Shown here: positions 1,028 through 23,917 of the stretch, in pieces
How positions within the stretch are numbered: position 1 is the stretch's first letter
How the letters are laid out: every line of letters begins with the position of its first letter
Source: Eutreptiella sp. 'Long Island Sound 2002'
Taxonomy: Eukaryota > Euglenozoa > Euglenophyceae > Eutreptiales > Eutreptiaceae
Assembly: GCA_964036045.1 (NCBI GenBank)
Contig: OZ038381.1
Location: forward strand, 127,169,708 to 127,233,707
DNA length: 64,000 nucleotides
Reading direction: 5' to 3'
Notes under the pieces: model-generated
The model's input: only the letters and a program-made list of their open reading frames with translations
Told to the model about the DNA's origin: nothing
Databases searched by the model: none
Made by a program: the position numbers and the translations under genes

Positions 1028-1263
1028 AAAGCGTTTCACCGCCGCGGGGTTACCCATCCCTCGCGTGCCACTCGGAGCCACCCGAACCCCGAGCAACACG
1101 GGCTTCGCAGCGCCGCCCGGCAACAGCGCCGAGTCCGTGAAGGAAGTGCAGGGACCGGAACTCCGACATCAACGAGTTCCTTCGGCCGACCAGCAAGGCC
1201 GCACTCCCAGCTTCAGCAACCGCCTCAACAACCACCCCCAGGACCAGTCCATCGAGGGGAACG
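1028..1263 (+). other. Retrotransposon leader between LTR and Gag
   Basis: This 236-bp untranslated leader follows the LTR. I see no convincing tRNA-complementary primer-binding site beginning TGG directly after the LTR. Several overlapping GC-rich open frames run through it but share no features with Gag. The Gag frame opens with ATG at 1264. Confidence 0.5.
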
Positions 1264-2637: not shown

Positions 2638-5631
2638 GTGGAGACCCTTCGAAAGCTTTTCGAAGGGGACGCCTCCTCCAAGATGGCGCTGGATACGGAG
2701 GAGGTGGACACGGGCAGCAGTGGGAGCAGTGGCCCCACTGCCTACCGACGGAGGAAGGGTAAGGGGAAGACCCCCGAGAGGTCACGGAGGCCAGCGGGCG
2801 GACACCCCCATGACTCCGACCCCTTCTTCACCGCCAGCGACGGGGATGAACGAGGCCGCCGACATCGCCGAGGAGTGGCTGGCAGAGGAGGCGGAGACGT
2901 CCCCATGGAGCCGGAGGGTGAGAGTGAGGATCTCCCTCCTCCCTACCGGAGCTCGGAGTCTTCCGCGTGCGGGACCGAGACGCCCAGGTGGGGCGACATG
3001 GACGAGGATGATGACATGGACTTTGACTACACGAAGAAGCCCCCATCCTCGGACCGACCGAGGCGACCCGGCGGAGACCCACCAGGACCCCCTGGCAGAG
3101 GACCATCAGGACCCCCTGGAGGACGCCCACCAAGTGGACCCGCTGGAGGCGGACCACCGGGCGGGGGAGGACCCCCTGGACCGGGCGGACCCGGCGGAGG
3201 CCCTCCTGGAGGACCCCCAGGGGACCCCGAAGACCCACCAGGGAACGGCGACCCGGATGCCACCTGGCGGTTGATTGTCCACCTCTGCAGGAGGGTCCAG
3301 TTCCTCGAGCGCGAGGTAGACACGGGCAAGGGCGAGATGACTCGCATCGCCAGGGTCGCCGCGGGCGCACAGAAGGAGCTGGGTATCACCAAGACGGAGA
3401 TGGTCAAAGTCGCCAAGGTCGCCACCGCCGCCCAGAGGGAGCTGGACATCGCCAGGGGCGAGACCAGGCTGCTGAACAAGGTCATCAGCGGCCTGCAGCA
3501 GTGGTTGGACGAGCTGGAGGCCCGTGGGAGTGTCGGCAGCGACCACCCACCCCTGGAGTCTGGCTCGTCAGACGACGGCCCGGGACCTGGACCAGGTCCA
3601 GGCAGACCCCACGCCCCCGGCGGAGCCCCCAGGAGTCGCCCCAGCGCCAGTGCCCCCTCTCTCAGCGCCCCCTCTCACCACAGCGCGGGCCGCCGCAACG
3701 AGCTCGTGCCGCCCGGCAGTGGCAGTGAGGAGTGGCGTGATGAGTGGCTCAGGGCGGAGTACCACAACCGCTGTGCTCCACCGCGGACACCGGTACGCCC
3801 CCGGCGCCCCGCACCAGCCCCGGAGCCAATCCCAATGGCTGGCGGACGTTATGGTGGACTCAGGGATGAGGTTCCCGGAGGAGACGTGGAGTGGGATGTC
3901 GGCGGAGGTGAGGACCTGGACCTGGACCTGGAGGAGTTCGGCATTACCCCGCCGCGTGGTGTACGACGGGAGGCCGCTGAACGCAGCCGCCGGAGCCGTG
4001 ATGAGGAGGCATACATGGAAGGAGTACGGCGTGAACATCTAGGTTCAGCGTACATGGAAGAACCACGGCGTAGCCATACGGATACCGTCGAGGACATGGA
4101 AGTGGCGGCCGTGAGAATCCTTGGGGGACGACGATGGGAACCTCGGTCGACCTCGCGGCCGGCGTTCATGGTCTCTAAGGCCGCGGACGCCACCGTGTGG
4201 GAAGACCTGAAGGACATCAAGCCCCCCATGTACGATGGCAACCCCGTCAACCTCGACCGCTTCTTGGAGAAGCTGGACGATTGGGGGGTGACCGTCACTG
4301 AAGACATGGATCCCGCAGATGCAGAGAGATATGTCTTCAAACGCCTCAGGTACCGCCTGCCGGAAGTGCTCAAAGAGCTATACTTTGTGGCGACCAAGGA
4401 GGGGAAAATCAAGACCCTCAAGGAAGCCAAGAAGTGGCTCAACGAGCAGGAGTGGGTGGACGCTCCGCAGGTGGCTGCCAAGCGGTGGAAGTCCATCAAG
4501 CTTCAGCATGATGGACGGGAGATCCGCCTACGAGATTGGCGGGACTTCCGGGGGCAATACACCCTCTTCCGCCGCAACGTGGAGGATTGGAATGAGGGTG
4601 ACGAGCAGGCCCGCCTGCTCTCCATGCTGCCGGAAGCATGGATCAAGAGAGTCACCAAGGAGGAAGCCAAGAGGGCCAAGTCCAACCACACAGTCAAGAT
4701 GATGCTCGCCAAGGAGTATCATACGAACGTGGTGGCTTGGACAAGGAAGAACTTGGCCCGGGATGTCAGACAGCACTCCCTGCGGAACGCCCTCCTCATC
4801 ACCGTCACGGGCGATCGCGAGAAGACCGCGATGTGGCGCCTTGATGAGTGTGAGTTGAGCGGCCAGACCATCCGTCTGCAGGCCATCCCGGCGCGGATGA
4901 GTTGCGACGAGATCCTGGAGTGGGTTGGAGAGGGGGTACTCAAGGAGTACCGGAACCTCCACCACACCCGCGGGTTGAGGCCCAGCGACCGTGACGTCAA
5001 CTACGTTGGCGAGGGGCCTGGCGGGGAAGCTGCCATGGACCCAGCGGGAGCCGATGGCGATGAAGCTCTCGTCGACGATGACGACGACGATGAGCCCGCC
5101 GAGATGGCCGTTTGTGCCTTCGTGGCCAACAACCTGAACGCGGGGAGCAACCGGGGAAGCTGGAAGCCCCTGCAGCAGGGTTGGAAGAAGACGGAGAAGA
5201 AGGACCCCCGCCGCATTGGCAACAGTCCGCTGTCCTTTGGGGAGTTCATACGAGCTCACCCTCAGGGGTGTTTCGTGTGTTATGGGAGGAAGCAAGGCTT
5301 CAACCATGACCACCGGACATGCCCCATCCACCAGGCCGACACGGAGGCCTACAAGAAGGCGCACGGGTCGGAGAAGCGTGCACCCGCGGGTATCCGGGAG
5401 GCCAAAGTGGAAGTGGACAAGGACGAGCTCTCCAAGCTGATGTCGGTGGGGACCGAGTTGGCCAAGGAAATCCAGGAGATCAAGAGGAACTGGATCCCCA
5501 GGTCGGACGACAAGAACAAGGAGAACGACAAGGACAAGGACAAGAAGGGTAGGAAAAGGGGAAAGAAGAAGGGTGTCAACGAGGTTGATGCGGAGGAGAG
5601 TACCCCTACTACCACAACCGACGCCCCTTAG
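2638..5631 (+). CDS. gag: Gag, main segment: coiled coil, capsid-like region, zinc knuckle
   Basis: 997 codons open in the same frame as the segment upstream. The order is an acidic linker, then a Pro/Gly collagen-like tract (about residues 138-200, PPG-type repeats). A three-fold repeated helical block follows (about 210-295, blocks such as TRIARVAAGAQKEL and VKVAKVATAAQREL). A Ty3-like capsid region covers about 508-700, with WEDLKDIKPPMYDGNPV near its start. A CCHC-like zinc knuckle, CFVCYGRKQGFNHDHRTC, lies near 880, and the tail is Lys-rich. The whole Gag, over 1,450 residues, is very long for Ty3/gypsy. It ends with TAG CGG; the reading frame then continues open into Pol. Confidence 0.85.
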   Translation: METLRKLFEGDASSKMALDTEEVDTGSSGSSGPTAYRRRKGKGKTPERSRRPAGGHPHDSDPFFTASDGDERGRRHRRGVAGRGGGDVPMEPEGESEDLPPPYRSSESSACGTETPRWGDMDEDDDMDFDYTKKPPSSDRPRRPGGDPPGPPGRGPSGPPGGRPPSGPAGGGPPGGGGPPGPGGPGGGPPGGPPGDPEDPPGNGDPDATWRLIVHLCRRVQFLEREVDTGKGEMTRIARVAAGAQKELGITKTEMVKVAKVATAAQRELDIARGETRLLNKVISGLQQWLDELEARGSVGSDHPPLESGSSDDGPGPGPGPGRPHAPGGAPRSRPSASAPSLSAPSHHSAGRRNELVPPGSGSEEWRDEWLRAEYHNRCAPPRTPVRPRRPAPAPEPIPMAGGRYGGLRDEVPGGDVEWDVGGGEDLDLDLEEFGITPPRGVRREAAERSRRSRDEEAYMEGVRREHLGSAYMEEPRRSHTDTVEDMEVAAVRILGGRRWEPRSTSRPAFMVSKAADATVWEDLKDIKPPMYDGNPVNLDRFLEKLDDWGVTVTEDMDPADAERYVFKRLRYRLPEVLKELYFVATKEGKIKTLKEAKKWLNEQEWVDAPQVAAKRWKSIKLQHDGREIRLRDWRDFRGQYTLFRRNVEDWNEGDEQARLLSMLPEAWIKRVTKEEAKRAKSNHTVKMMLAKEYHTNVVAWTRKNLARDVRQHSLRNALLITVTGDREKTAMWRLDECELSGQTIRLQAIPARMSCDEILEWVGEGVLKEYRNLHHTRGLRPSDRDVNYVGEGPGGEAAMDPAGADGDEALVDDDDDDEPAEMAVCAFVANNLNAGSNRGSWKPLQQGWKKTEKKDPRRIGNSPLSFGEFIRAHPQGCFVCYGRKQGFNHDHRTCPIHQADTEAYKKAHGSEKRAPAGIREAKVEVDKDELSKLMSVGTELAKEIQEIKRNWIPRSDDKNKENDKDKDKKGRKRGKKKGVNEVDAEESTPTTTTDAP

Positions 5632-8600
5632 CGGAGCCCCTGCAGCCAAGGGCCCCAGCTAGGGCGGTCGCAGGATGGTGCCGTGGGAAGCGCCACACCA
5701 TCCCAGTCGGGAGACAAAAAGCACATAGGGATTGCCGCGGGCGGAAGGCCCGGTCCGGCACCCGACAGTCGCGGTGGCGGGATGAGGGCAAGTGAAGGCA
5801 CGAACCCTTGCACCCGTCCCTCCTTCGCGACCAAGAATGTATTTGATGTGCTTCAAGATCTTTCCGAGAGTATGAGAGGATCACCCGGACCGCAGCTGGA
5901 TGCTGCAGATGGGCAGCCTGAGCCCATTGTCCACGACCTGCACCAGTCGCTTGTGGAGCTTCTGGAACGGCCGGAGATCCTGAGCTTGCACGCCGTGCGC
6001 CGAGTGGGGCGTGAGCGGCAGTTGCACCTTAAGGTCCGTGCCGCATGCGGGGAAGTGGATAAGGTCTTCGACGTGTTGGTCGGCACGGGAACTCAGGTCA
6101 CCTTGGTCAAGGCTGGCCTACTTCTGCCAGAGTGTTTGACCGACAGTCGGAAACCTGTCAGGCTGAAGGTGGCGAATGGCCAGTACATGGTGGGAGGCAC
6201 GAAGGAAGCGGCCATTGGGCTGCAGTTCGTGAACCACCGTGAGCTGAGCCGCCCGGACCTCGGCAAGGAAATCCTCCTGCAAGGTCGCTTCTACGAGGCC
6301 GAGATGGACTGGGACATGATCGTTGGGTACGACTTCATGAACCAGACGGACTCCGGCGTTCTCCCGGCTCAGGCCTCCATGACCCTGTACCGGGACGACC
6401 AGCTCTCGTGGCTTTCGTCACCTGAGCACCATGTGGAATGCCAATGGATCCGCCCGGAACGCAATCAGCTTGAAGTAGCCGTGCTGGGCACTGAGCCAAC
6501 TGGGGCAGCAAACCAGGAGTACGGCGTAATGCCGGAAGTGGCGAGCCGAGTGGTCGCGGACCTGGGAGCTTCGGATCTGGCCCTGGATGCGTTCTCTTCA
6601 GGAACCTCCGCCCATCTTCGGGTTTGTGAGAAGTACTGGAGCGCCCGGGACTCCGCATGGAAGAAGCACTGGGGTCCGCATCAGGGTTTGATGTGGATCC
6701 ATTGCCCCCGATGGGACATACCAAGGGCGGTAGCGAAGATTCGCAAGGACCGCTCCAAGGCAGTGCTGGTTGTTCCTATGGGATGCACCGAGGAGGAAAG
6801 CACCCGACATTGGGTGGTCTCATTGACCAACATGACCTTAAACAAGGTCGTTCTACCGGCTGGAGAGAGTGTCTATCAGGAAGCTAAGGGACAGCCCATG
6901 CCACCCCAGAGATGGCCAACAGAATTCCACTATGTGGATGGGGGCCTTGAACAGGCCGACACCACGGACTTCGTGTGTGTCAATCGCATCATAGCGGAGC
7001 CCTGGCGGCAATGCTTTGCGGTTTCCCCTGTTGACATCGGAGAATCGGAGGACCCCCTCACCGAAGAGCAGTTGGATCTGGTTCAGGGGTATATGGATCA
7101 GCCCTTCCACAACTGGGGAAGCCAGCGTGAGGGCAAGGGCCAGGACAAAGCCTGGTGGGAAGTGGACTCGATCGTCTCTGCTTCCTATGATGGGGATACC
7201 TTCGTAAGGAGGGTACTGGACCACATGTCCAGCCAGGACGAGCCAATCGGGGATAACCCACCCACCTACGGCGACCTATTCCGAGGCAAGACCAGAGATG
7301 GCCCTTTGGGCCACCGTGGAAGACCACCTGAGCCGAAACCGAGTGGGGTCGCAACCCCTCAAGTAAGCTCAGTGGTCCAGGTGCCCGGAAAAGCCAAGGC
7401 GGAGTCTGATGAGTGCCCCAAGATCCAGGCATTGAGGGCCAGGCTGAAGCAGAAGTACGGTGAAACCTTCTTCAGCGGAAAACCTGTGTTTCCCCCACCG
7501 GTGCGTGGACCGTATGGCGAGGCCAAGATACGACTGAAGCAGGACCCCCGTGTGTATCGACACCGGGAGTTCGACCTCAGGGGTGAGAGGAAGGAGGCCA
7601 TGGAGAAGATTCTCCGTGACTTCATCGAGAGAGGCTGGCTTGAGCCGTGCAACTCCGAGTGGGCCTCTCCATGCTTCGTCGTCCCCAAAGAGGTGGCCGG
7701 TGAGTGGCGGCTCGTGGTCGACTACCGCGGCCTAAACGCCCAAACGCAGCATGACAGCTATACGCTGCCCCTCATTGAGGACATGCTGCAAAAACAACAC
7801 CGGCGGAGGATCTTCACGGTGATTGACCTGAAACATGGTTATCATCAGATGCCTCTCGCCGAGGAGTCCCGTGCCTGCACAGCCATGAGCACCCCGCTTG
7901 GACCTCTTCAGTGGAAGGTGACGCCCATGGGCGTTACCAACGGCAATGCGGCTTTTCAGCGGATGCTGGAGAACCTGCTTGAGCCGGTGCGTGACCGTGC
8001 GGACCCCTTCGTGGACGACGTGATCATCGCGTCCGGGGACCCCAGTATGAGCTACGAGGAGCTCCTGGAGGCACACGAGAGGGACGTCAGCCGAGTGCTG
8101 GACCTTCTGGTTCGGCACAAACTCACGGGCAGCAGTGACAGGGCCACCATTGCGGTAAGCGAGGTGGTCTTCGCTGGCCACGTAGTTGGGAACGGGCAGC
8201 GAAAGCCCATACCTGGCAAGGTGGCTGCGATCGAGCACTGGGAAAGGCCCAAAACGGTCTCTGAGCTACGGGCGTACTTGGGGTTCTGCAACTACTACTC
8301 GGGGTATATCAAGATGTATGCCGAGTATGCAGCCCCCATGACGACCATGCTCAAGGGCAACCGAGAGGAGACCAAGAAGGGGTCCAGGAAGGTTCTGGTC
8401 TGGGATGCTGAGTCCGACCGTGCCTTTGAGGGGATGAAGCAGGCGCTGCTATCCGCAGTGGGTCTGCACCTCGTGGATCCTGACCGAGGGTTCGTCCTGC
8501 GCACCGACGCTTCCGACTACGCCGTTGGCGCTGTATTGGAACAAGTGCTTGACGATGGGAGGCACGTGCCAGTGGCCTTCTGGAGCCGAGTCCTGGCGGA

Positions 8601-9528
8601 AGGCCAGAGACGGACGTGGACGCCCCGAGAAAAGGAGGCGTATGCCATCGTCATGGCTCTCAGGAAATGGGCTGGGTACATAGCCCTCCATCCCGTCACC
8701 GTCTGCCCCGACCATCAGAGTCTGCAGTTGTGGCACAAGGAGCACGTGGACACCCCCTCTGATCCCGCCTCCCGACGGGCGAGATGGCATGATACCTTGG
8801 CCAAGTTCGACCTCACGGTTGTGTATGTTCCTGGTAAGGACAACACCGTTGCGGACTGTCTCAGTAGGTGGGCCTATCCCGCCAGCAAGGGCATGACAGA
8901 CGTGTCTGCCCATGGCGATGAGGCTGAGACCGCTGAAGCCAAGCAGATCATTGAAATGGAGCGCCTGATGCAGGAGGAGGGTGTTAAATGCTTCGTCGTC
9001 ATGGCTGCGGATGCCCCCCTCAGAACGAGGATGGGCAGAGCGGTCAGAGTACTCGCCCCTGATGGAGCTGAGTCCGACAAGCACCTCTTCCCTGAATCTT
9101 GCCTCCAGGACGACTGGACCGATGACTACGCTAAGTCTGAGGCCTTTGAGGCCGAATATAGGGCTGTGACCGACCCTGATGACGGGCAGAAGTGGCCAAA
9201 GGGGCTGACTGAGGAAGATGGCAAGCTCTACCGGAATGGTAAGCTGCTGGTCCCAGAGTCCCGGGTGCTCGAGCTGTGCGAGGCTGGGCATCACCACATG
9301 ATGCACCCAGGGGTCAAGAAGCAAGCCCTGGACATGCAGCGCCGGTTCGAGATCGACCAGATCAATCTCTACAGCGCCATCAAGAAGGTCAGGAAGGGTT
9401 GCTCGGTCTGTCAGGCCTGCAATCCCGATAACCGGAACGTCAAGGGGGAGCCCAATGGACTCCGGTGCCTGACCAGCCCATGGAGAGCGTGGCAATGGAC
9501 GTCTTCTCCATGCCCGAAGTTCACATAG
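5632..9528 (+). CDS. pol: Pol part 1: protease, reverse transcriptase, RNase H, integrase zinc domain
   Basis: The frame is identical to Gag and open from the codon after the TAG at 5629-5631. The first start-like codon is GTG at 5683. A retropepsin-like segment lies near 6060-6360 and reads VLVGTGTQVTLV, where the catalytic Asp of the D-T/S-G motif is Gly. The reverse transcriptase shows VDYRGLNAQT, FTVIDLKHGYHQ and the catalytic FVDD at 8008-8019. RNase H shows RTDASDYAVGAVLEQ and later DNTVADCLSRW. The integrase HHCC zinc domain (HHHMMHPG...CSVCQAC) follows at about 9283-9425. The frame then runs into a stop at 9528, where an indel near 9450-9465 separates it from the integrase core. Confidence 0.93.
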   Translation, partial: RSPCSQGPQLGRSQDGAVGSATPSQSGDKKHIGIAAGGRPGPAPDSRGGGMRASEGTNPCTRPSFATKNVFDVLQDLSESMRGSPGPQLDAADGQPEPIVHDLHQSLVELLERPEILSLHAVRRVGRERQLHLKVRAACGEVDKVFDVLVGTGTQVTLVKAGLLLPECLTDSRKPVRLKVANGQYMVGGTKEAAIGLQFVNHRELSRPDLGKEILLQGRFYEAEMDWDMIVGYDFMNQTDSGVLPAQASMTLYRDDQLSWLSSPEHHVECQWIRPERNQLEVAVLGTEPTGAANQEYGVMPEVASRVVADLGASDLALDAFSSGTSAHLRVCEKYWSARDSAWKKHWGPHQGLMWIHCPRWDIPRAVAKIRKDRSKAVLVVPMGCTEEESTRHWVVSLTNMTLNKVVLPAGESVYQEAKGQPMPPQRWPTEFHYVDGGLEQADTTDFVCVNRIIAEPWRQCFAVSPVDIGESEDPLTEEQLDLVQGYMDQPFHNWGSQREGKGQDKAWWEVDSIVSASYDGDTFVRRVLDHMSSQDEPIGDNPPTYGDLFRGKTRDGPLGHRGRPPEPKPSGVATPQVSSVVQVPGKAKAESDECPKIQALRARLKQKYGETFFSGKPVFPPPVRGPYGEAKIRLKQDPRVYRHREFDLRGERKEAMEKILRDFIERGWLEPCNSEWASPCFVVPKEVAGEWRLVVDYRGLNAQTQHDSYTLPLIEDMLQKQHRRRIFTVIDLKHGYHQMPLAEESRACTAMSTPLGPLQWKVTPMGVTNGNAAFQRMLENLLEPVRDRADPFVDDVIIASGDPSMSYEELLEAHERDVSRVLDLLVRHKLTGSSDRATIAVSEVVFAGHVVGNGQRKPIPGKVAAIEHWERPKTVSELRAYLGFCNYYSGYIKMYAEYAAPMTTMLKGNREETKKGSRKVLVWDAESDRAFEGMKQALLSAVGLHLVDPDRGFVLRTDASDYAVGAVLEQVLDDGRHVPVAFWSRVLAEGQRRTWTPREKEAYAIVMALRKWAGYIALHPVTVCPDHQSLQLWHKEHVDTPSDPASRRARWHDTLAKFDLTVVYVPGKDNTVADCLSRWAYPASKGMTDVSAHGDEAETAEAKQIIEMERLMQEEGVKCFVVMAADAPLRTRMGRAVRVLAPDGAESDKHLFPESCLQDDWTDDYAKSEAFEAEYRAVTDPDDGQKWPKGLTEEDGKLYRNGKLLVPESRVLELCEAGHHHMMHPGVKKQALDMQRRFEIDQINLYSAIKKVRKGCSVCQACNPDNRNVKGEPNGLRCLTSPWRAWQWTSSPCPKFT

Positions 9529-10610
9529 GCAAGGAGACCTTTGACTGTGTGGTCCTTTGTGTGGATCGCCACAGCGGCTACACAGTAGCCGTTCCGGCAC
9601 GCAAAAAGGGGTTGCTTGCCAAGGAAGTGGCAGTCATGATGATTCGTCATTGGCTGACCGTCTTTGCCACCCCCCGCACCATTTGCAGTGACCGGGGGCC
9701 CCAGTTTACTGGTGGCTGGTTCAAGGCCATGTGTTCCCTCATGGGAATATGTCATGCCAAGAGCGTCGCCTATCTCAGCCGGTCTAACGGCCGGGCTGAA
9801 GTGGCTGGACGGCAGCTGTTCGAGAAGCTGCGGAAGATTCACATCACCAATCCACGTCGGAACTGGTTTGAGGAGATGTGGCCCGCTCTGAAGGCCCATC
9901 ATGAAACCCCCACTCCGGGTGGTTTGTCCCCTCACAAGATTCTGTTCGGCAGGGACCCCCTGGGTCGGGGACTTCCCTTGTCTGGTGATGGTATGGCCAT
10001 GGACGCCAAGGAATTCTTTGCGCGGCAAGAGGCAACGGCGTGGGACATCCGCCAGCAGCTCGAGAAGGAGCATGCTGAGCGTCAGAAGTCCGCCCCGAGC
10101 TCGACAGCGCAAAAGTTCAGGGTGGGAGACCCGGTGTGGGTGATCAGACCCCGCCCTATGGGCACCCACCGCACAAAAACCTGGTTCACAACCGGTGAGG
10201 TGGTCCGCAGGATTGGTGAGGACACCTACCGCATCAAGGTGGGTCACGGACAGTTCCGGGAGCGCCACGAGAGTCAACTCCGTGTGCGGGAACCCGGCCT
10301 CCGTGGCCAACATGTGTCCCTGAACTACGCCGCACATGAGGCTGATTCCGACGACGACTATGCTGAGCAGGACGACTATACCGTCGAGAAGATCCTGGCC
10401 CAGCGTCCGAACGCCTCGGCACCCGGAGGCCTGGAGTTCAAGGTTCGTTGGCGAGGCTACGGGCCGTCCCACGACACCTGGGGACCCGTCTCCTCGTTCG
10501 TACCGCGGATTAATACCCCCTTCATGGACTACATCCGCAAGCACAAGACCAAGATCCATGTCTCGGACTTGGCAGCACTCACCCGGGCGATTGCAGCCAG
10601 GGGCGCCTGA
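9465..10610 (+). CDS. Pol part 2: integrase catalytic core and chromodomain
   Basis: 381 codons in a frame shifted relative to the upstream Pol. The join reads ...GLR/VPDQPMESVAMDVF, a normal integrase entry, so a single-base indel explains the break. The integrase D-D-E triad is visible: Asp in VAMDVF, Asp in CSDRGPQFTGG and Glu in SNGRAEVAGRQ. A GPY/F-like region (RVGDPVWVIRP) follows. A C-terminal chromodomain covers about 10378-10530 (YTVEKILAQR, FKVRWRGYGPSHDTWGP), which in chromoviruses is thought to steer insertion to marked chromatin. Stop TGA at 10608-10610. Confidence 0.93.
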   Translation: MPDQPMESVAMDVFSMPEVHIGKETFDCVVLCVDRHSGYTVAVPARKKGLLAKEVAVMMIRHWLTVFATPRTICSDRGPQFTGGWFKAMCSLMGICHAKSVAYLSRSNGRAEVAGRQLFEKLRKIHITNPRRNWFEEMWPALKAHHETPTPGGLSPHKILFGRDPLGRGLPLSGDGMAMDAKEFFARQEATAWDIRQQLEKEHAERQKSAPSSTAQKFRVGDPVWVIRPRPMGTHRTKTWFTTGEVVRRIGEDTYRIKVGHGQFRERHESQLRVREPGLRGQHVSLNYAAHEADSDDDYAEQDDYTVEKILAQRPNASAPGGLEFKVRWRGYGPSHDTWGPVSSFVPRINTPFMDYIRKHKTKIHVSDLAALTRAIAARGA

Positions 10611-15730: not shown

Positions 15731-15745
15731 AGATGGGACATTTTT
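15731..15745. repeat. Target-site duplication of LINE-A, left copy
   Basis: AGATGGGACATTTTT occurs here and again at 23903-23917. The two copies bound a - strand non-LTR element of 8,157 bp. Confidence 0.7.
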
Positions 15746-16090
15746 GCACGTAGACACATTTTGAGTCCGGTGAAGACTGTTCAATCAAATTTACACTGCA
15801 AAACTACTTTACAGCAGAACCCAGTAGGCAGAGTCACCCGATGGATGCCCCTTACGCCATTGGGTCAGTGGAGATTCGGGTGCTCGGCGCCTCAAGATCC
15901 TGCAGGGCGTCCGCCGGCACATGAGGGGGTGATGTATGCAATATATAATGAGAGTTGGATGTGCATTCGAAACTGTAAGCGAAGCTTGGCTAACAGAGGG
16001 TACTTTCGGCTGTAGTCAGGGTGGATTAGCTAGCTACATCGTGTGGAATTACTGGAGGCATGAGGAGAGACATACAACAGGTTCAGGCCG
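15746..16090 (-). other. LINE-A 3' untranslated region
   Basis: Sequence between the last LINE stop (16091) and the left target duplication. It contains no open frame of note on the - strand and no obvious A-rich tail at the insertion junction. Confidence 0.5.
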
Positions 16091-17080
16091 CTAGTTCGGG
16101 GGGAAGAATCTGTCGTTCCGAGGCTGTTTGCGATCAGGAGGGTGTGCGGCCGGGGGGGGGGGCGGGTTCACTGCGCTTTCGCCCTTTGTGCTGCGCCTGG
16201 GCTCCGTCACGTCGGGGTGGCGCAGGGGGAGGAGGGGGGGGGGGACCGGGGCCAATAGGCAGCAGGTAGGCGTCCAGAGCGCGTTGCGCTGCGCTGGGCT
16301 TTGCTGGCTTGGGCGGTGCCGGGGGGGGGGGCGTTTTTTCCGCTGTGGTTGATCCGAGGCTTTTCGCTTCGGGGCCCTCAACACCGCCGCAGGCAGGGCC
16401 GAGGGGGGAACGTATTTTGGCGGGTCCCGAGGGGCATGGCCTCTGGAGGTACTGAATTCACCCAGGGAATCAAAATAATTGTTTCTGGTTACTGGTGGGC
16501 CGATGGCCCCGGGTGGGTTGTCGTGGAGAAATTTGTTGGCTTCCTCGATGAGTGGCGTGAGCGTCCTATTGCGTTTAACCAGGGCGCTGTCAAAGTCTTT
16601 AGCATGCATAGCGGGGTCCTTGCCTGACGGGGACGTTGCAAGCGTTGTGTGGAGCGTTTTTAGGACGAGCGTTCTGGTAGCGAGTCGTCTGTCCCCACGG
16701 TCGCTGGCTATCCGGCATTGGAGTGCTAATTTGTCAAAAGGGGGGGGGCAGGCGCTGGAGAGACACTGCTGGAACCACTGCATCGTGGGACAGAGGGCGC
16801 AGAATGAGATGGGGTCCATCGGGTGCACTTCTTGACATTTAGGGCATGTTCGGTCACTGGTGTCACAGTGAGGTCTGTAGTCCTGACAGCCATACGTGCC
16901 TGACACCCACTTGAATGCGATTGCCGAGAAAAAGCTGCTCTGTCGGAGAAAGCTTGCGCTGGTGCCGAAGTGCAGGCGCGTGTGTGGGTGGGTTGGGAAG
17001 AGGGAGCGGGTGTGGTGTTTCGGAATTTTTGAGATGAGGGCTAGGCCCCCACTAGTGACCACTCCCGCAGGGGGGGGGGG
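16091..17080 (-). CDS. LINE-A C-terminal segment with Cys-rich zinc-binding motif
   Basis: This continues the RNase H segment after a frame change at a homopolymer C run near 17060-17080 (G run on the + strand), where the open frame extends to 17185. It contains CPKCQEVHPMDPISFCALC, a CX2C...CX2C pattern like the zinc-binding tails that follow reverse transcriptase or RNase H in many LINEs. A basic KRKASDQPQRKKRPPPR stretch and a Pro-rich end follow. Probable role: RNA or DNA contact during target-primed reverse transcription. The homopolymer break could also be an assembly error. Confidence 0.72.
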   Translation of the reverse strand, partial: PPPPAGVVTSGGLALISKIPKHHTRSLFPTHPHTRLHFGTSASFLRQSSFFSAIAFKWVSGTYGCQDYRPHCDTSDRTCPKCQEVHPMDPISFCALCPTMQWFQQCLSSACPPPFDKLALQCRIASDRGDRRLATRTLVLKTLHTTLATSPSGKDPAMHAKDFDSALVKRNRTLTPLIEEANKFLHDNPPGAIGPPVTRNNYFDSLGEFSTSRGHAPRDPPKYVPPSALPAAVLRAPKRKASDQPQRKKRPPPRHRPSQQSPAQRNALWTPTCCLLAPVPPPLLPLRHPDVTEPRRSTKGESAVNPPPPPAAHPPDRKQPRNDRFFPPN

Positions 17081-18320
17081 GTAGGAGGGAGGGGTGCCAC
17101 AGTAATGCTTGAGCGGCCCATTTTGAGAAATAGTCCGCGAGCTCGTTTCCCATAAAGTGTGCGTGGCCCTTGATCCAAGCCACATGGATCAGGTGGGGGA
17201 GGGGGGCGAGGAGGGATGTGTAGGCAGTGTCTCGTGTGCCCTGTGTGTAAGTCGACGGCCTCGCTGGGGGGGGGCTGGAAAGGGCCCGGTTGACCGCTTC
17301 AACTGTGTCAAGGTTATCACCCAGGACTACCACCGGAGTATTGGGGAGGATGTTGGGGAGGTGTGCTAACGCCATTGCCATGGCCCATTGCTCGGAGCCC
17401 CCTGAAGTGGGCGAGGGTGACGAGCGGCAGAGGACGTAACACTGTTGTTGCCAAAAGATAGCGAAGGCGCTGCCATGGCCCCCATCACCCGAGCTTCCAT
17501 CCGTATAGATCCACGCCGTGTCATCAAAGGGGAGCTCGGCGACGAGGTTAGCCGCCTGAATGCACCCCCACCCCATTAGATCCTCATGGTTTAGAACGTG
17601 GCGGAGGTTAGGCAGGTGGAACCAGTGTCCTTCACAGGTGCTATCCATGAGGTCCGCTTGAAGAGGAACCGTGATGTCAGGGTTGCGGGTTTGCGGGGAA
17701 GAGAAGGGTGGGAAAAGGTGGTAGTGGGTTATGTCACCCGGGGGGAGAGGAGGGGTGTTGGGGGGGGTGAAGATGAAATTACTCCGTTCCGTGATGGTAG
17801 CGGATTTCCCAGTGTCGAAGCAAATGGTGGCTGTTTTTTTGTAGACTTTGGTAACCCTGGCCAGGCAGGGGGGGGCATTTCGGGGTGCAGCATACAGTGG
17901 TTCTCGCTCGTGCAGTTCACAGGGGAGGCAGGGGTTCCATGGTCCAGGGGCGTGGAATCGAAGACTCAGGCGGTTGGCCGCATCCAGGAAGCTATCTTGA
18001 AGGGCATTTTGCCGTGTCGAAAGGAGGGCGTCTCTAACTGCCACACAACTAGCCGGGGGTCCGTCCTGGTTCAGGTACCTTAGTCCCGCTTCAACAAAAG
18101 ACTTGTGAACCGCTATTCCCAGGTGGCGGAGGCCTAGCCCAAGTTTAGCACGTGGCTGGTATATGTCCTTAGTGGAGACTTTGGGCGAGATTCTGCCATG
18201 CGTAGCAAGCTCTTTCCAGACCGCTGCCGTGAGCTCATCTATTTCGCTGGGGAGAAAAGGGTGGGCAATGAGGCGGTAGGTGAGGATTGGTATTAGTTGG
18301 ACATTCACCAGTTTAACCAG
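17052..18320 (-). CDS. LINE-A reverse transcriptase thumb and RNase H
   Basis: Same frame as the upstream reverse transcriptase, beyond a TAG at 18321-18323; the phrase LVKLVNVQLIPILTYR reads straight across as a normal LINE thumb region. An RNase HI domain follows with all four acidic positions: YTDGS at 17493-17507, Glu in GGSEQWAMAMAL, Asp in VVLGDN, and Asp in GNELADYFSK preceded by HVAWIKGHAH. It would remove the RNA strand after first-strand synthesis. RNase H after reverse transcriptase is typical of some L1/I-type LINEs of plants, algae and protists. Confidence 0.88.
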   Translation of the reverse strand: MVKLVNVQLIPILTYRLIAHPFLPSEIDELTAAVWKELATHGRISPKVSTKDIYQPRAKLGLGLRHLGIAVHKSFVEAGLRYLNQDGPPASCVAVRDALLSTRQNALQDSFLDAANRLSLRFHAPGPWNPCLPCELHEREPLYAAPRNAPPCLARVTKVYKKTATICFDTGKSATITERSNFIFTPPNTPPLPPGDITHYHLFPPFSSPQTRNPDITVPLQADLMDSTCEGHWFHLPNLRHVLNHEDLMGWGCIQAANLVAELPFDDTAWIYTDGSSGDGGHGSAFAIFWQQQCYVLCRSSPSPTSGGSEQWAMAMALAHLPNILPNTPVVVLGDNLDTVEAVNRALSSPPPARPSTYTQGTRDTAYTSLLAPLPHLIHVAWIKGHAHFMGNELADYFSKWAAQALLWHPSLLPPPPCGSGH

Positions 18321-20990
18321 CTAAGGGAGGGTACGGCGAAGCGGGGAAAGGTGTGCGAAGTAGCTGTTCAGTTCCGAGTGTATTTGGTGTCGGAGTTGCG
18401 GGGGGTGCTTATCGTTGTAGATGTAAACACCCAGGTATTTGTAGGCCTTCCGTGGCTGTTTGGTATCCGGGTCGACAGTAGAAAGTGTGAAGCCGCTTGG
18501 GCTCTGGAAGTCATGCTGTGGGACGCCACCCAGGGCGTGCACCTCTGACTTGTCACAGTTCATTTGGAGCCCCCATGTCCTGGCGTCCGTGTCATAGAAG
18601 TCAATTAACTTTTGGATGTAGGTCTGGGAGGGTGATCGGTACAATTTGTCATCGATGAAACCGTGTGCTGAGGTCTCGGCGGGTCTCTCCAACGGAGAGG
18701 GTTGAGGGGCTGCATGGAGCAGCACGTTAGAATAAAGGATGAACAGGACAGGGGACATGGGGCAGCCCTGGCGGAGGCCCCTGGTTTGGAGGTAGTGGTA
18801 GGGTGTGACATTGTTGACAAGAGGGGCATCCTGGGGGTGGGCGTAGAGTCCACTGATCAGGTCTACCGGCCCCGCCGGCATTCGATAGTGGTGGAGGACC
18901 CGACGGAGGGTGGGGTGGGGAACGCTGTTAAAGGCCTTGTTAAAATCAATGTAAAAATGGTAGGCCTGGGGGCTTCGGGCGATTTCTGCCGTGACGTGAA
19001 AAAGGTGGTCCATGGTTCGGAAATTTGGCATGCCCCCGTGTTGGCTGTGGTGCATGAGGGAATGGTCTCTGATGAAAGTTTGGAGGGCGGAGGCGGCATG
19101 TCGGGCCACTAGCTTGCAGACAGTGTTTAAAAGGGCTATTGGGCGGTAGTTTGCGGGGTCGTGGGGGCACATTTTCTTGTAGATCAAACATACTTGGGCG
19201 GTCGTCCAGTGGGGAGGCAGGGGCTCATGCAGGAAGCGATTTACCACCAGAAAGAAGAGCGTCTGCAGGTGGGGGGGGGGGACGGAGAGCAGGTAGGTGT
19301 TGGTGTGGTCGTCTCCTCCTGCCTTGCAGGAGCTAGCTGAGTGGAGGATGTCCGTAAACTCTGACCATGTCATGTCCGGGATGTCCTGAGTTTCTGTGCC
19401 CGAAGGGCACTGGGGGGTGTGGCTCAGGAGGCGCTGTGTGAAATCGTCGCGGGGGGTGTAGTCAGGCGAACCCCCCAAGTGGAGGAGCGTATCCGAAAAT
19501 ATCTTTGCAACCTCTTTGGTGTCTGTAGCAAGGGTTCCGTCAGAGCGCCTGAGGGAGATTGGAGCCTGATCCGGGGGTTGGAGGTGTTTCTGGATGGCAC
19601 TCTTGAGTTGGCGGCCCTGGACGATCGCTCTGTGTACCGCGGTCCGGGCTGATTTCTGTTTCGCTTTCTGCCATTCATCGAGGTAGTCATTGAGCTGCCT
19701 CATGTTTTCTCCAAAACGGGGGTGGGAGGCTGGGGGGAGGGCATTGGCCAACTGGGTGAATTCTTTCTGAATTTTGGACGGGGCTGTCCCTCCCGCCGGG
19801 GTGGTAATCGAGTGGTAGGCCTCCGAGCACTCTCGGAGAATGGCGTCCACTATCGGGACCAGGTCAGAGGTCGGGACGTCAGGGAGGTGTTTGTTAAAGT
19901 CCTCACACCATTTCTCGAGGGGTTGCAGTCCCCCTTGAAGACGGAGCAATTCCTGTTTCTTTAGCCTTCGGAAGCGTTTACGGGGGGGTGGGGGGGATGG
20001 TGTGGGGATGAGGGGTGGGTGCAGTTGTGATGTGACAGGGTGGTGGTCGGTAGAGCAATCACCATAGAGAATTGAAGCGTCAGCAATTTTTTTGTCATGG
20101 AAGAGGCTCCTCGAAGCAAAGATGTAGTCCAATCTGTTCTTAGACGCCGGTGGGGTCCACCCCAGGGCAGTGCTGTGCATGTGTCGGTACGTATCGATCC
20201 ATGACGGGTTACTGCCCGATGTTTTGGAAGTGACCCAGGCCCACGGGTTGGAGTCGGCGTGCAAGGAGTCTAGATGGGGATTGCGGATGCAGTTGAAATC
20301 ACCTCCCACCACATGGTAAGGGTACCGGGAAAGAAGACGCGACAGGTTGATTTCAATCAGGGGGCGCCTGGTAATTGCGGGTGGGGGAGAGTAAAGAGAG
20401 GTGAGGAGTGTGGGGGGGCCGCCCGGGAGGGTTAATTCAACCGAGCACATGAGTCCATCGTTGTCTGAGTTCGGAACAAACTGTGTGTAGGGCCGCAAAG
20501 CCGAAGAGACCACGATGGCAGTGCCATTCTTTTTCTCTCTCTTGTTGATGTTGGTGAAAATTTTCCATTTTTCCCCCCCGTGGCTGAAGATGTGTGGGAG
20601 GCTGGGCTCTTCGTTCAGTTCCTGGAGGAGCAAGACATGGTATCCTTTTTGTAGGTGGTGGAAAATGAAGGGGGTGGGGGGCTTCTTTTCCAGGTTGTGT
20701 GAAAGGATTATGAGCGTGGGGGGCGGGGGGTTGTTGAGCTTTGCAGCTGGGCGCACATACTTCTTGCTTTGCCTCCAACTGGTCACGGGAGGGGGCTCAA
20801 GACCAAAGCAAGCCAGGTCGGGCAAGTGTGACCGTCGCGGGTTTTTAGGAGTGGGGCGGGGGCGGAGGGGTTCAGAGGATGGAGGGGGGGTGCTCAAACG
20901 ATGCGCGCTGGGTTGAGGGACGCCGAGGCGTTGAAGCAGTTCGCTAAGCTTGCCCGCTGCCGTCTTGAATCTCGGCGTCGGGCTCGGCGT
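18321..20990 (-). CDS. LINE-A endonuclease and reverse transcriptase
   Basis: The frame is open from 21152, but the part above about 20990 is the out-of-frame shadow of AlkB. The exonuclease/endonuclease/phosphatase domain shows LLLQELN, VVGGDFNCI, NRLDYIFAS and STDHHPV, the Mg-binding and catalytic residues of LINE nicking enzymes. The reverse transcriptase shows YRPIALLNTVCKL, FYIDFNKAFNSVPH, GLRQGCPMSP and the active-site FIDD at 18648-18659. It ends in a TAG that interrupts an otherwise open frame. Role: nick the target and copy element RNA onto it. Confidence 0.92.
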   Translation of the reverse strand, partial: TPSPTPRFKTAAGKLSELLQRLGVPQPSAHRLSTPPPSSEPLRPRPTPKNPRRSHLPDLACFGLEPPPVTSWRQSKKYVRPAAKLNNPPPPTLIILSHNLEKKPPTPFIFHHLQKGYHVLLLQELNEEPSLPHIFSHGGEKWKIFTNINKREKKNGTAIVVSSALRPYTQFVPNSDNDGLMCSVELTLPGGPPTLLTSLYSPPPAITRRPLIEINLSRLLSRYPYHVVGGDFNCIRNPHLDSLHADSNPWAWVTSKTSGSNPSWIDTYRHMHSTALGWTPPASKNRLDYIFASRSLFHDKKIADASILYGDCSTDHHPVTSQLHPPLIPTPSPPPPRKRFRRLKKQELLRLQGGLQPLEKWCEDFNKHLPDVPTSDLVPIVDAILRECSEAYHSITTPAGGTAPSKIQKEFTQLANALPPASHPRFGENMRQLNDYLDEWQKAKQKSARTAVHRAIVQGRQLKSAIQKHLQPPDQAPISLRRSDGTLATDTKEVAKIFSDTLLHLGGSPDYTPRDDFTQRLLSHTPQCPSGTETQDIPDMTWSEFTDILHSASSCKAGGDDHTNTYLLSVPPPHLQTLFFLVVNRFLHEPLPPHWTTAQVCLIYKKMCPHDPANYRPIALLNTVCKLVARHAASALQTFIRDHSLMHHSQHGGMPNFRTMDHLFHVTAEIARSPQAYHFYIDFNKAFNSVPHPTLRRVLHHYRMPAGPVDLISGLYAHPQDAPLVNNVTPYHYLQTRGLRQGCPMSPVLFILYSNVLLHAAPQPSPLERPAETSAHGFIDDKLYRSPSQTYIQKLIDFYDTDARTWGLQMNCDKSEVHALGGVPQHDFQSPSGFTLSTVDPDTKQPRKAYKYLGVYIYNDKHPPQLRHQIHSELNSYFAHLSPLRRTLP

Positions 20991-21582
20991 CCAGAGCACA
21001 CTGCACGTTGCGAAGGATGACCGCCACTCGCCGGTCCCGAGGGACTTCGGCCCAATCCACCAAATCGCCCATGCGGTAGGGCACCTGATGCTGCCATTGT
21101 TCTCGAAGTTCTCCCGTGACTTGGAGGGCTGAGTATCGTGGTACCCGCACACTCACCATCGGGCCATTTCCTTTACGGAACTCCATGGTGGTAGCCCCCA
21201 TGAGTGAAATCGAGGTGATAGTGTCGCCTAGGTCATCGATGTCCTTATGCCATCCTATGCCCACCCCAGGTTCATAGTCGTTCACGCTGACTTCGTTCGG
21301 CTGTACCGCTAGCAGGGGGATGTCCTCCGAGTCTTTAGCGTCCATGAGGTTGTCGATGAGATTCATGAGCTCCGTGGGGAGCTCTTCCGCTCGTTCGAGG
21401 GTGTGGGAGGCATCCACATACTTCCATCCGTAGTGCAGCTTGCCCCTTCGGGTCTCTCGCTCCCATTCCTGCTTCTCGAGGTAGGCCATTAGGGTGGTCT
21501 CCATAGTCATGTCGATGACGTCCTCGATAATGCGTAAGCCCGGGAGGTCTTCCTCCGTGAGGTCCTCCGGTTGTCGATCTTC
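20944..21582 (-). CDS. AlkB-family Fe(II)/2-oxoglutarate dioxygenase domain in LINE-A
   Basis: The frame is open directly after the ORF1 stop; the first ATG is at 21510 (188 aa from there). Numbering from that Met, it shows LHYGWKY (25-31) and VNDYEPGVGIGWHKD (76-90). The iron ligands are His88, Asp90 and His141 (in REQWQHQVPYR). The 2-oxoglutarate-binding R-x5-R motif is Arg161/Arg167 (RVAVILR). SALQVTGELR matches the family's turn before the distal His. AlkB enzymes oxidatively remove methyl groups from nucleic acids. By position it would belong to the element's polyprotein or a separate product. The frame stops at 20944, and the endonuclease continues in the +1 frame. Confidence 0.87.
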   Translation of the reverse strand, partial: EDRQPEDLTEEDLPGLRIIEDVIDMTMETTLMAYLEKQEWERETRRGKLHYGWKYVDASHTLERAEELPTELMNLIDNLMDAKDSEDIPLLAVQPNEVSVNDYEPGVGIGWHKDIDDLGDTITSISLMGATTMEFRKGNGPMVSVRVPRYSALQVTGELREQWQHQVPYRMGDLVDWAEVPRDRRVAVILRNVQCALDAEPDAEIQDGSGQA

Positions 21583-23652
21583 TTATCGCGGCGGGCGGTG
21601 AGGCGGGCGTAGGAGTGTTTGGTGCTCCTTGGTGTTGGCGATGTAGTCTTTGAGGAAGGCCCCCGCGCCGACGTTCAGGCCCGCTCGCACTCGTGCCTCC
21701 GCCGGGCGATCCTCCTCAGCCACCGAAGGGTCGAGTTGTAGGAGTGTGTCAACCTGTAGATAAGGTTGGGACGGGTGAAAGGAAATGGGGCCCATAGCAA
21801 AACCCGTGGCAATTTGAGCGGATTGGAGCTTCTCATAGGTGACGGAGTAGAAGCTTATAGGAGGATTTTCGGATCTCGAGTGGAGTTCAAACCGCGTGAA
21901 TGGGCCTAGGAGACCCGCCGCACATTGAATGTCAAAAAGTGAGGTCGTATTGGGCGCTTGGACATCCACCTCGTTTGGCTCTCTCTGACTAGGCATCGGC
22001 GGCGGAATAGAGACCATGGTCGGCGGAGATTTAGGGTGAGCATCCTGCTTGCCTCCTTGTCCAAATGCATTGAAGGTGATCAACGCTCCGTCCTTTGAGG
22101 TGCACATTACCATCGCTCCATTAGTGTGGAGGAAAGAGGCAAAGGTAGAGAGAGGCGAGCGCCCTTCGTCGCTTGGGGTATTGCTAAGGTCCAATCGGAC
22201 TATCACGCTATCCCGGCTCTTGATTGACGTGCCCATGACACGGGTGCGCCCTCGTCCCCCAATCATGTGGCCCATGAGGGTGTTCATGACCTCGGTGGGT
22301 GTAAATTCTCCCTTGTGGCGGTTTCTCTCGTTGCGTGACGGGTTCACAAAAAAAGAGTGTTGGTCAACCATTTTTGCCACTTCAATCACATAGAATCGCC
22401 CTCGTAAGAAATCTCCATGTTCCAAAGCCACGGACATAAGTTCGTTTGCAAGAGCCGGAGCCATGGTATAGTCGTACCGGTAATAACTTGGGTGTGGTGC
22501 ACGAAGGGCTTCTCCGTTCTCAAAATAATATTTGCAATTGGTGGTAGTCGCCGCGCCCTCAAAGTCCGGTGCAAGCGTATTGTTCAACCATTTGTAGAAG
22601 TCCCGTACGTTGCCTAGCTCCGCTTTCTTTCGAATGTTGGTGTCTTCTTGGTCACTCGGGAGCTCTCGTTGATCAATGATCTCTCGTAGCACATCAAATC
22701 GAAGTAGGACATGCGCTTGCTCTATATCCAAGTTGGTACTTTGATGTACGAAGCGACGTAGGCTCGAGGAGTGGTCAACCGTGACGCTCGGGTGCTTAGA
22801 CGGAGCATACCATGATTGGGAATGAAGTTGGTAGGCGATGTATGGCACGGCGAGAGCATTCCCCAAGATGTATTGGGCGTTCTCAACATTTTGGTTGCCG
22901 GGGATCCACCATTGCTTTGCATCATGGAAGCTAAAGCGTTGCGTAATAAAGGGGCGTAAGGGAGTGAGAAGCAAACGGGGGTCAACCAACAAGCAATTTT
23001 CCGCATTGCAATTTTTAATGGGCGCCGGTAACATGAACCATCCCTCAAAATCTTCGTTGCGCGAGCGGGCTAGTTGAAAGGCGTGTCCTATGGAGGCCGC
23101 CCAATCCGTCACGGTCTCTACGGTGGTTCCCAAGTCGTGGTCCACGTAGTTGTACGGCACCGGGCACACTAGGAAGGTCTTGTGAATGTGCAAGATATCA
23201 TAGACGTGCGCCAAGTCTTCGTGTGCACAATTTGAGTAGAAGCCCGAGCCTTTCGGGATAGTGGTGTTGAGTTCCGTGAAGGAGTTCTTTTTGTCGGAGA
23301 CGTTGAACTCATGGTTCCATTGGCAAGTGTCCCATAATTTTCGCAACGTGGCACACGTGTGGATTCGCTTCTTGGCATCATACGCCATGTTGCCTTGCAC
23401 TTTGATGCTTCGTGTTCGAGATATGAGGAGTTCGGCGTTGCTTTCAACGGAAGCCCATCGTTGTAGGGCCGTAGGCGCCGCTTGGTCAATATGTGAGTAT
23501 TGTGCAAAGGTGAGCGGAGAACCGCTAGGCAAGCGTGGATGAAGTATTTTATTTTTTGGCAAAGTGGGATGTTTGGAGTCGTCAATATCCATAGAATTTT
23601 GCGTTTGAGAAGCATTGGACCAACCAAGGAGCGTATATGGGCTTGGGAACAT
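21583..23652 (-). CDS. LINE-A ORF1, unrecognised 689-aa protein
   Basis: Start ATG at 23652 (MFPSPYTLLGWSN): the frame is open up to 24030, but this is the first Met that lies inside the element as bounded by its target duplication. I recognise no RRM, CCHC knuckle or esterase domain. Visible features are an N-terminal MDIDD acidic patch, several Trp/Tyr-rich stretches (FEGWFMLPAPIKNC, AKQWWIPGNQNV, YRYDYTMAPALANELM) and a hydrophilic C-terminus. By position it corresponds to the RNA-binding chaperone of other LINEs, but that is inference. It ends CCGCGATAA, and the frame resumes open as AlkB. Confidence 0.7.
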   Translation of the reverse strand: MFPSPYTLLGWSNASQTQNSMDIDDSKHPTLPKNKILHPRLPSGSPLTFAQYSHIDQAAPTALQRWASVESNAELLISRTRSIKVQGNMAYDAKKRIHTCATLRKLWDTCQWNHEFNVSDKKNSFTELNTTIPKGSGFYSNCAHEDLAHVYDILHIHKTFLVCPVPYNYVDHDLGTTVETVTDWAASIGHAFQLARSRNEDFEGWFMLPAPIKNCNAENCLLVDPRLLLTPLRPFITQRFSFHDAKQWWIPGNQNVENAQYILGNALAVPYIAYQLHSQSWYAPSKHPSVTVDHSSSLRRFVHQSTNLDIEQAHVLLRFDVLREIIDQRELPSDQEDTNIRKKAELGNVRDFYKWLNNTLAPDFEGAATTTNCKYYFENGEALRAPHPSYYRYDYTMAPALANELMSVALEHGDFLRGRFYVIEVAKMVDQHSFFVNPSRNERNRHKGEFTPTEVMNTLMGHMIGGRGRTRVMGTSIKSRDSVIVRLDLSNTPSDEGRSPLSTFASFLHTNGAMVMCTSKDGALITFNAFGQGGKQDAHPKSPPTMVSIPPPMPSQREPNEVDVQAPNTTSLFDIQCAAGLLGPFTRFELHSRSENPPISFYSVTYEKLQSAQIATGFAMGPISFHPSQPYLQVDTLLQLDPSVAEEDRPAEARVRAGLNVGAGAFLKDYIANTKEHQTLLRPPHRPPR

Positions 23653-23902
23653 GGTAGCGTGAAAATAGGCGTGTTCACGTCGGAATTGCGAAATGGGACT
23701 AGAGGTTGGCAAAGACGAGAAATGTCGGCGGCGGCGGTGAAATAGCGTAGGTGGCACGATCAATGCCAACCAAGGTAGATGCTCAAATTTCGGTGAAATG
23801 CGCCCAAATGCCACTAGTCCTGGACGGCTTTTTTTTTTACTAGTGGTGCGACATTGTCCATCTGAAGGGGCAATCGAAAAAAAATAGACACTCAGAAAGT
23901 GA
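23653..23902 (-). other. LINE-A 5' untranslated region
   Basis: About 250 bp between the right target duplication and the ORF1 start; it should carry the internal promoter. The frame is open through it but has no Met. Confidence 0.5.
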
Positions 23903-23917
23903 AGATGGGACATTTTT
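23903..23917. repeat. Target-site duplication of LINE-A, right copy
   Basis: Matches 15731-15745 exactly over 15 bp (AGATGGGACATTTTT). Confidence 0.7.

Follow-up and report, generated by a model that had tools for sequence, protein, structure and literature searches.

The question raised by this locus is what an enzyme of the AlkB family does inside a retrotransposon. The stretch analysed was 64,000 nucleotides long (Eutreptiella sp. 'Long Island Sound 2002', assembly GCA_964036045.1, contig OZ038381.1, positions 127,169,708 to 127,233,707 of the forward strand; hereafter the window, whose own numbering is used throughout). It carries on its minus strand a long interspersed nuclear element (LINE), designated LINE-A, with a predicted Fe(II)/2-oxoglutarate dioxygenase ahead of its endonuclease (EN). 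The domain is, as judged from profile, sequence and fold comparison, a genuine AlkB-type dioxygenase with intact catalytic residues and predicted activity; its identity, its attachment to the neighbouring open reading frames (ORFs), its copies in the genome, its selection and its possible role are treated in turn.

Identity of the AlkB-type domain

The frame runs from stop to stop at 20944-21582 (minus strand; 212 aa; domain at 20947-21582), and the plus-strand reading of this interval contains six stops. The first-pass annotation had assigned it to the AlkB family from its motifs, and the assignment was borne out by Pfam (PF13532, 49.7 bits at a cut-off of 31.2, E = 6.8e-13), by sequence matches (human ALKBH8, E = 3.9e-14; S. 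pombe Ofd2, E = 1.2e-9; two bacterial relatives, 35% and 28% identical) and by an AlphaFold model built on a six-sequence alignment, which has the double-stranded beta-helix fold (predicted local distance difference test, pLDDT, 83.5; predicted template modelling score, pTM, 0.81); the single-sequence model was uninformative (pLDDT 38). Foldseek with the former model gave ALKBH8 as best match (E = 1.3e-14); ALKBH8 (PDB title: tRNA hypermodification) and ALKBH5 (PDB title: N6-methyladenosine (m6A) single-stranded RNA) were among the nearest structures. Phage records contained no match to AlkB at E ≤ 1e-5; plasmid records gave 151 matches under 60% identity, the best one annotated AlkB. IMG/VR scans with the single AlkB, ORF1 and ORF2 sequences and with alignments A1 and A4 gave no relative, and the scan with alignment A2 gave three contigs carrying an AlkB gene.

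The catalytic residues, counted from the first Met of the frame (21508-21510), were found exactly where the first reading had placed them: the iron ligands of HxD (21241-21249), His88 (codon 21247-21249) and Asp90 (codon 21241-21243); the distal iron ligand His141 (21088-21090); and Arg161 and Arg167 of R-x5-R (21010-21030), which we take to bind 2-oxoglutarate. An NxY pair (Asn77, Tyr79) is also present. Conservation was read from an alignment of 42 rows: the window; 28 loci from the genome search with the 212-aa domain (L007-L035 minus L022, which is represented by L067); 11 loci from the PF13532 search (L052-L055, L057-L060 and L062-L064); L066, which represents L056; and L067. L061 and L065 were dropped as duplicates of L034 and L016. 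HxD and both Arg are kept in 42/42 copies, the distal His in 41/42, and all seven catalytic residues in 40 of the 42, all of which belong to family A. The order of the HxD...H triad and R-x5-R is common to LINE-A, the two bacterial relatives and the three from IMG/VR.

Attachment to ORF1 and junction with ORF2

The domain had been placed between ORF1 and the endonuclease; the order holds, and the domain is in frame with ORF1 as its C-terminal part. In the window, the ORF1 protein (21586-23652, minus strand; 689 aa if begun at the Met 23650-23652, the frame being open from 24033) is separated from AlkB by an in-frame TAA directly before the domain (21583-21585). This stop is private to the window copy; 41 of the 42 aligned copies have a sense codon at its position, CAA in 37 and CAG, AAA, GAA and TGG in one each, the TGG being probably that of a copy, such as L029, that is truncated and preceded by unrelated sequence. 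No Met occurs between this codon and the start of the fold, the first Met of the AlkB frame lying inside it (residue 25, against residue 11 for the start of the ALKBH8 match and 16 for that of the first predicted strand), and in a divergent family, B, ORF1 and AlkB form a single open frame of 1142 aa. Taken together, the sense codon, the missing Met and the family B frame indicate that the ORF1 protein has AlkB as its C-terminal domain, the frame being interrupted in the window only by the private TAA.

At its other end the AlkB frame closes with GCT TAG CGA A (20940-20949, minus strand), a candidate +1 recoding site, and ORF2 follows in the +1 frame without a start ATG. The AlkB frame is terminated by a stop in 39 of the 42 copies (TAG in 34, TAA in 5), in 32/42 within the identical stretch GCTTAGCGAACTG; the first 75 ORF2 codons after the shift contain Met in none of the 39 copies ungapped there, and in the window the first Met of the +1 frame is 163 codons past the shift, inside EN. 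Since the frame change from AlkB to ORF2 is conserved across the family, it is not a product of decay, and a +1 frameshift at the AlkB stop codon is a moderately likely means by which family A would translate ORF2 from the ORF1-AlkB message. The family B AlkB frame ends with AAT TAA NGAAC or a near variant; its +1 frame to EN is open in one of four copies (L068) and interrupted in three, and in one family B copy the ORF2 frame has a Met ahead of EN.

Copies in the genome and divergent families

The genome (2.28 Gb) was searched with the 212-aa domain, the best 150 of 1575 candidates being scored; 151 matches resulted, the weakest of them not listed. A count by hand gives at least 99 matches with ≥98% query coverage and ≥80% identity, among them the window copy itself and a few duplicates of the assembly; 78 of these 99 are without internal stop. 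A search with PF13532 (best 150 of 1107 candidates scored) revealed further AlkB groups. The AlkB of family B is only about 32% identical to that of family A and matches PF13532 with 44.4 bits; used as query, it gave 150 scored matches (best 150 of 1546 candidates), each 93-100% identical; assembly duplicates account for some of these, and the true total may be higher. By hand count, 30 of the 150 have an AlkB free of stops and lie in frames ≥1100 aa long.

The first-pass annotation had allowed that a domain absent from all related LINEs would point to an accident in one copy. It is present in six further copies belonging to two divergent families, and the order ORF1-AlkB-EN-reverse transcriptase (RT)-RNase H was found in 6/6, namely L066 and L067 of family A (in L067 the RNase H part is seen for its first 50 residues only) and L068-L071 of family B. 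The explanation by chance insertion of a host AlkB gene into one copy, or by an assembly chimera, for which nothing was found, is refuted by this shared arrangement, by matches on many contigs and by the 37 of 42 aligned copies that continue into EN at ≥90% identity; we give it practically no credence.

Identity between families A and B, taken over matched segments, is 23-24% for ORF1, 31-33% for AlkB, 37-45% for EN-RT (40% over the whole alignment), 31-44% for the RNase H portion and 29-31% for the tail. AlkB with EN downstream was found at two more divergent loci, L073 (family C) and L051 (family D). A tree built from 17 AlkB sequences places all seven LINE domains on one side of a branch (support 88/93; 86% of 200 bootstrap trees); the tree fits one acquisition before the families split, as far as long branches, a long-branch warning from the program and thin sampling of cellular AlkBs allow.

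Two further groups of loci were noted. At L072 (340-915) there is an AlkB remnant with HxD changed to HxE, followed by an in-frame glycine- and lysine-rich stretch; no EN was found downstream in the 4 kb examined. L036-L050 are possible host AlkB-type genes of several classes, the best PF13532 match being 106 bits (L036); matches to EN, RT or RNase H of LINE-A or family B were absent near 14 of these 15 loci and weak at L047.

Selection on the domain

Observed variants were compared with the same mutations relocated randomly to equal trinucleotides of the same region. The observed-to-expected ratio of nonsynonymous to synonymous changes was, for AlkB (42 copies), 0.71 for singletons, 0.30 where two or more copies share the variant and 0.165 where four or more do; for the last 500 codons of ORF1 (23 copies), 0.685, 0.25 and 0.17; for EN (37 copies), 0.795, 0.31 and 0.06. 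Rows of <90% identity or <93% coverage, in ORF1 often because the stretch retrieved for the copy ends there, were excluded from the latter two. Comparison of nonsynonymous and synonymous rates across copies (dN/dS), proposed as a check at the outset, was made on the 34 of 42 AlkB copies free of stops and gaps and gave a pairwise median of 0.20 (437 pairs, dS > 0.05) and 0.07 (65 pairs, dS > 0.2), the pairs being non-independent; family B gave 0.15-0.43 (6 pairs). These values support purifying selection on AlkB, with near-neutral decay after insertion and strong constraint along the active lineages, alike in ORF1, AlkB and EN. Picking the compared copies on protein or profile scores favours low dN, and this speaks against the conclusion; the signal is nevertheless considered real because singletons contrast with shared variants and because the flanks, which were not used for picking, behave alike.

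It had been argued that the catalytic residues survived while the rest of the copy decayed, and that selection had therefore kept the domain until recently. The survival of the residues and the selection were upheld, the latter by the comparison of copies, but the argument from decay was not. Damage to LINE-A is slight: two in-frame stops (TAA at 21583-21585, TAG at 18321-18323) and one frame change (17070-17081), with the motifs of EN, RT and RNase H also retained. There is thus no decaying background from which AlkB would stand out, the element being only lightly damaged and its other motifs kept.

Anatomy, boundaries and 5' end of LINE-A

The whole insertion (15746-23902, minus strand; ca. 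8.16 kb) is flanked by target-site duplications, AGATGGGACATTTTT on the plus strand at 23903-23917 (5' side) and an identical 15 bp at 15731-15745 (3' side). The 3' flank was matched equally well at 0/2000 control positions; when both flanks were chosen less strictly, 28 of 2000 control pairs matched. Duplications of variable length were found in two of three copies tested (15 bp in LINE-A, 18 bp in L066), L067 being without a clear one (8 bp at best). ORF1 gave no match in Pfam, NCBIfam or PHROG, and no credible one among PDB sequences (best E = 0.99). The first part of ORF2 (18324-20942, minus strand) comprises an APE-type endonuclease (PF03372, E = 1.5e-9) and a reverse transcriptase (PF00078, E = 8e-27) with FIDD at the YxDD position, whose best solved relative is human L1 ORF2p (E = 9e-18). 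By sequence reading, an in-frame TAG (18321-18323, minus strand) separates RT from the second part (17055-18320, minus strand), a connecting region and RNase H (PF00075, E = 3.6e-7) for which the sequence search of PDB gave nothing at E ≤ 0.01. The frame changes, likewise by sequence reading, at a run of 12 G (17070-17081, minus strand), and the tail (16094-17188, minus strand) has one CxxC..CxxC zinc-binding-like motif and a counterpart in family B of about 30% identity. The EN, RT and RNase H motifs presumably have their customary roles. LINE-A is, by its predicted APE endonuclease and RT, an L1-like non-long-terminal-repeat (non-LTR) retrotransposon.

No second copy of LINE-A was found inside the window. 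Another, more broken LINE lies at 48987-55495 (plus strand), with EN, RT (about 27% identical to that of LINE-A) and a sub-threshold RNase H match; it gave no AlkB match.

The 5' end of LINE-A carries the spliced-leader sequence (23875-23900, minus strand; 26/26 bases of the Euglena spliced leader, chance expectation 0.00), starting two bases after the 5' target-site duplication. A printed euglenid leader of 28 nt contains the 26 bases, and 100% identity to the E. gracilis leader was reported for it (excerpt of PMC3621762). The dinoflagellate spliced leader gave no match in the window with up to three mismatches allowed; a dinoflagellate host was rejected on these grounds in favour of one of euglenid type. 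Of the seven copies read, four have a stretch that reaches the 5' end, and the leader stands there in all four: exact in the window, with one mismatch in L066 (position 141) and L067 (8418), both of family A, and one T shorter in L070 (8555) of family B; the leader itself marked the element end in these four, which are thus not an independent count of 5' ends. The sequence upstream of the leader differs among them, and ACTTT is preceded in each of the four by TC, against AC in the printed leader. From leaders at element 5' ends it follows that the copied RNA was trans-spliced, now or in an ancestor, and that RT reached the 5' end. An exact leader at L013 (position 128, minus strand) runs antiparallel to the AlkB frame of that locus and therefore belongs to another insertion.

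Proposed role of the enzyme

Reverse transcriptases are blocked by bases that carry methyl groups on their pairing face, the ORF1 product of LINEs is an RNA-binding protein, and laboratory protocols employ AlkB to clear pairing-blocking methylations before cDNA synthesis. That nucleotide modifications can interfere with cDNA synthesis is stated in an excerpt of PMC12140624, where AlkB is mentioned 27 times. The ORF1-AlkB protein of LINE-A would coat the element's own trans-spliced RNA, and AlkB would oxidatively strip base methyl groups from it, either damage of the 1-methyladenosine/3-methylcytidine (m1A/m3C) type or host-added marks; a template kept open in this way would let target-primed reverse transcription proceed as far as the 5' end and would also be available for translation, the same message probably yielding ORF2 of family A via the +1 frameshift at the AlkB stop. 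If ORF1 binds the element RNA, as in other LINEs, the enzyme would thereby be delivered to that RNA. We regard such cleaning of the element's RNA for RT and translation as about evenly balanced between true and false, and rank it above m6A erasure, and the latter above action on DNA. The stricter claim that AlkB is a reverse-transcription read-through factor, clearing RT-blocking methylation from the trans-spliced template during copying in a long-lived euglenid LINE clade, is put forward tentatively, as something short of an even chance; if true, it would have its counterpart in RNA-sequencing protocols that pair AlkB with a non-LTR RT.

RNA is favoured over DNA as substrate because the domain is fused to ORF1 and because ALKBH8 and ALKBH5, among the nearest structures, act on RNA. 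An m6A eraser would also act on the element RNA, removing host-written N6-methyladenosine so that it escapes epitranscriptomic surveillance, as proposed for Ty3/Gypsy elements of orchids; this we consider rather unlikely. Erasure of N6-methyladenine, or repair of alkylated bases, at the target or in new cDNA would prevent the silencing of new copies, but AlkB is fused to ORF1 and not to the EN-RT protein that touches the target, and action on DNA appears distinctly improbable.

Several observations weigh against the cleaning of element RNA by an active enzyme. RNA- and DNA-acting enzymes of the AlkB family lie within about 3.5 Z units of one another, so that the fold comparison singles out no substrate class, and ORF1 matched no known RNA-binding family in the profile and PDB sequence searches given above. 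The Asn of NxY is absent from family B (by eye), and the sole family C copy read (L073) lacks the first iron His; both would suit a non-catalytic RNA- or protein-binding module that has kept the fold only. Against such a module stand the iron ligands and both Arg, retained in all four family B copies read, and the full set of catalytic residues in nearly all copies of family A, and we hold it to be very improbable. The Euglena leader cap is described as trimethylguanosine (excerpt of PMC3388326), and a variant in which AlkB clears a kinetoplastid-type cap-4 was rejected as unsupported on this ground.

The retention of AlkB while the families diverged to 23-45% identity suggests that base methylation, as damage or as host marks, has been a lasting obstacle for the element. 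Elements with writers or erasers of methyl marks are known from few lineages. The LINE-A family also offers insertions that record trans-splicing and a candidate +1 recoding site, and it may serve as a testable system in which a two-residue change could report on retrotransposition, full-length insertion and RNA methylation.

Other features of the window

By eye, long frames at 1141-10610 (plus strand) resemble a Ty3/Gypsy element comprising a gag-like region, RT-RNase H and integrase. Two overlapping frames at 57346-59485 (minus strand) show a PHD finger and a SAP domain, both below Pfam cut-offs. A 291-aa frame at 46826-47701 (minus strand) has no Pfam match and is by eye cysteine-protease-like, as in some DNA transposons. 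A 1-kb array at 34842-35843 is built from a repeat unit some 10 or 20 bases long (CCCCATAGGT), with 50 copies of the 20-base unit.

Comparison with known systems

The titles and abstracts reached by open-access PubMed Central searches contained no AlkB-bearing LINE; subscription papers, Repbase and preprints lie outside this scope, and an earlier mention is possible. Cellular ALKBH8, ALKBH6 and S. pombe Ofd2 and bacterial AlkB share the fold and the catalytic residues with the LINE domain, but they are stand-alone host enzymes. In the ALKBH8 subfamily, RRM and methyltransferase domains surround AlkB; the Pfam scan of ORF1, a protein of no assigned family beside the LINE AlkB, gave no RRM or methyltransferase match. 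The Alpha-/Betaflexiviridae and Closteroviridae are plant RNA viruses with RNA-dependent RNA replication and no integration. Their AlkB domains, for which RNA repair is postulated (as cited in an excerpt of PMC9289625), offer the likeness of an RNA-based replicator with its own AlkB.

Ty3/Gypsy elements of Phalaenopsis orchids bear an AlkB ORF that encodes a working RNA demethylase, described as a recent acquisition (excerpt of PMC9289625). They are, like LINE-A, retrotransposons that took up and keep an AlkB-family demethylase; as LTR elements they have AlkB in an additional ORF, whereas LINE-A is a non-LTR element with AlkB fused to ORF1, in families that are 23-45% identical by segment. Where an LTR retrotransposon would have an integrase, LINE-A has an APE endonuclease and the anatomy of a LINE. 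LINEs of trypanosomatids with Pr77, a group likewise within the wider Euglenozoa, are described as giving unspliced transcripts (excerpt of PMC8190864), in contrast to the spliced leader at the start of LINE-A.

SymbioLINE-Dnmt of dinoflagellates is a LINE with a cytosine methyltransferase in its first ORF, under purifying selection and in many copies (excerpt of PMC5890265). The first ORF of LINE-A likewise carries a predicted nucleic-acid modifying enzyme under purifying selection in many copies; the dinoflagellate enzyme is a writer, that of LINE-A a demethylase-type dioxygenase, and AlkB occurs 0 times in the main text of PMC5890265. Uptake of methylation enzymes by retroelements is thus known; what appears new here, going by the titles and abstracts covered, is AlkB in a LINE, fused to ORF1.

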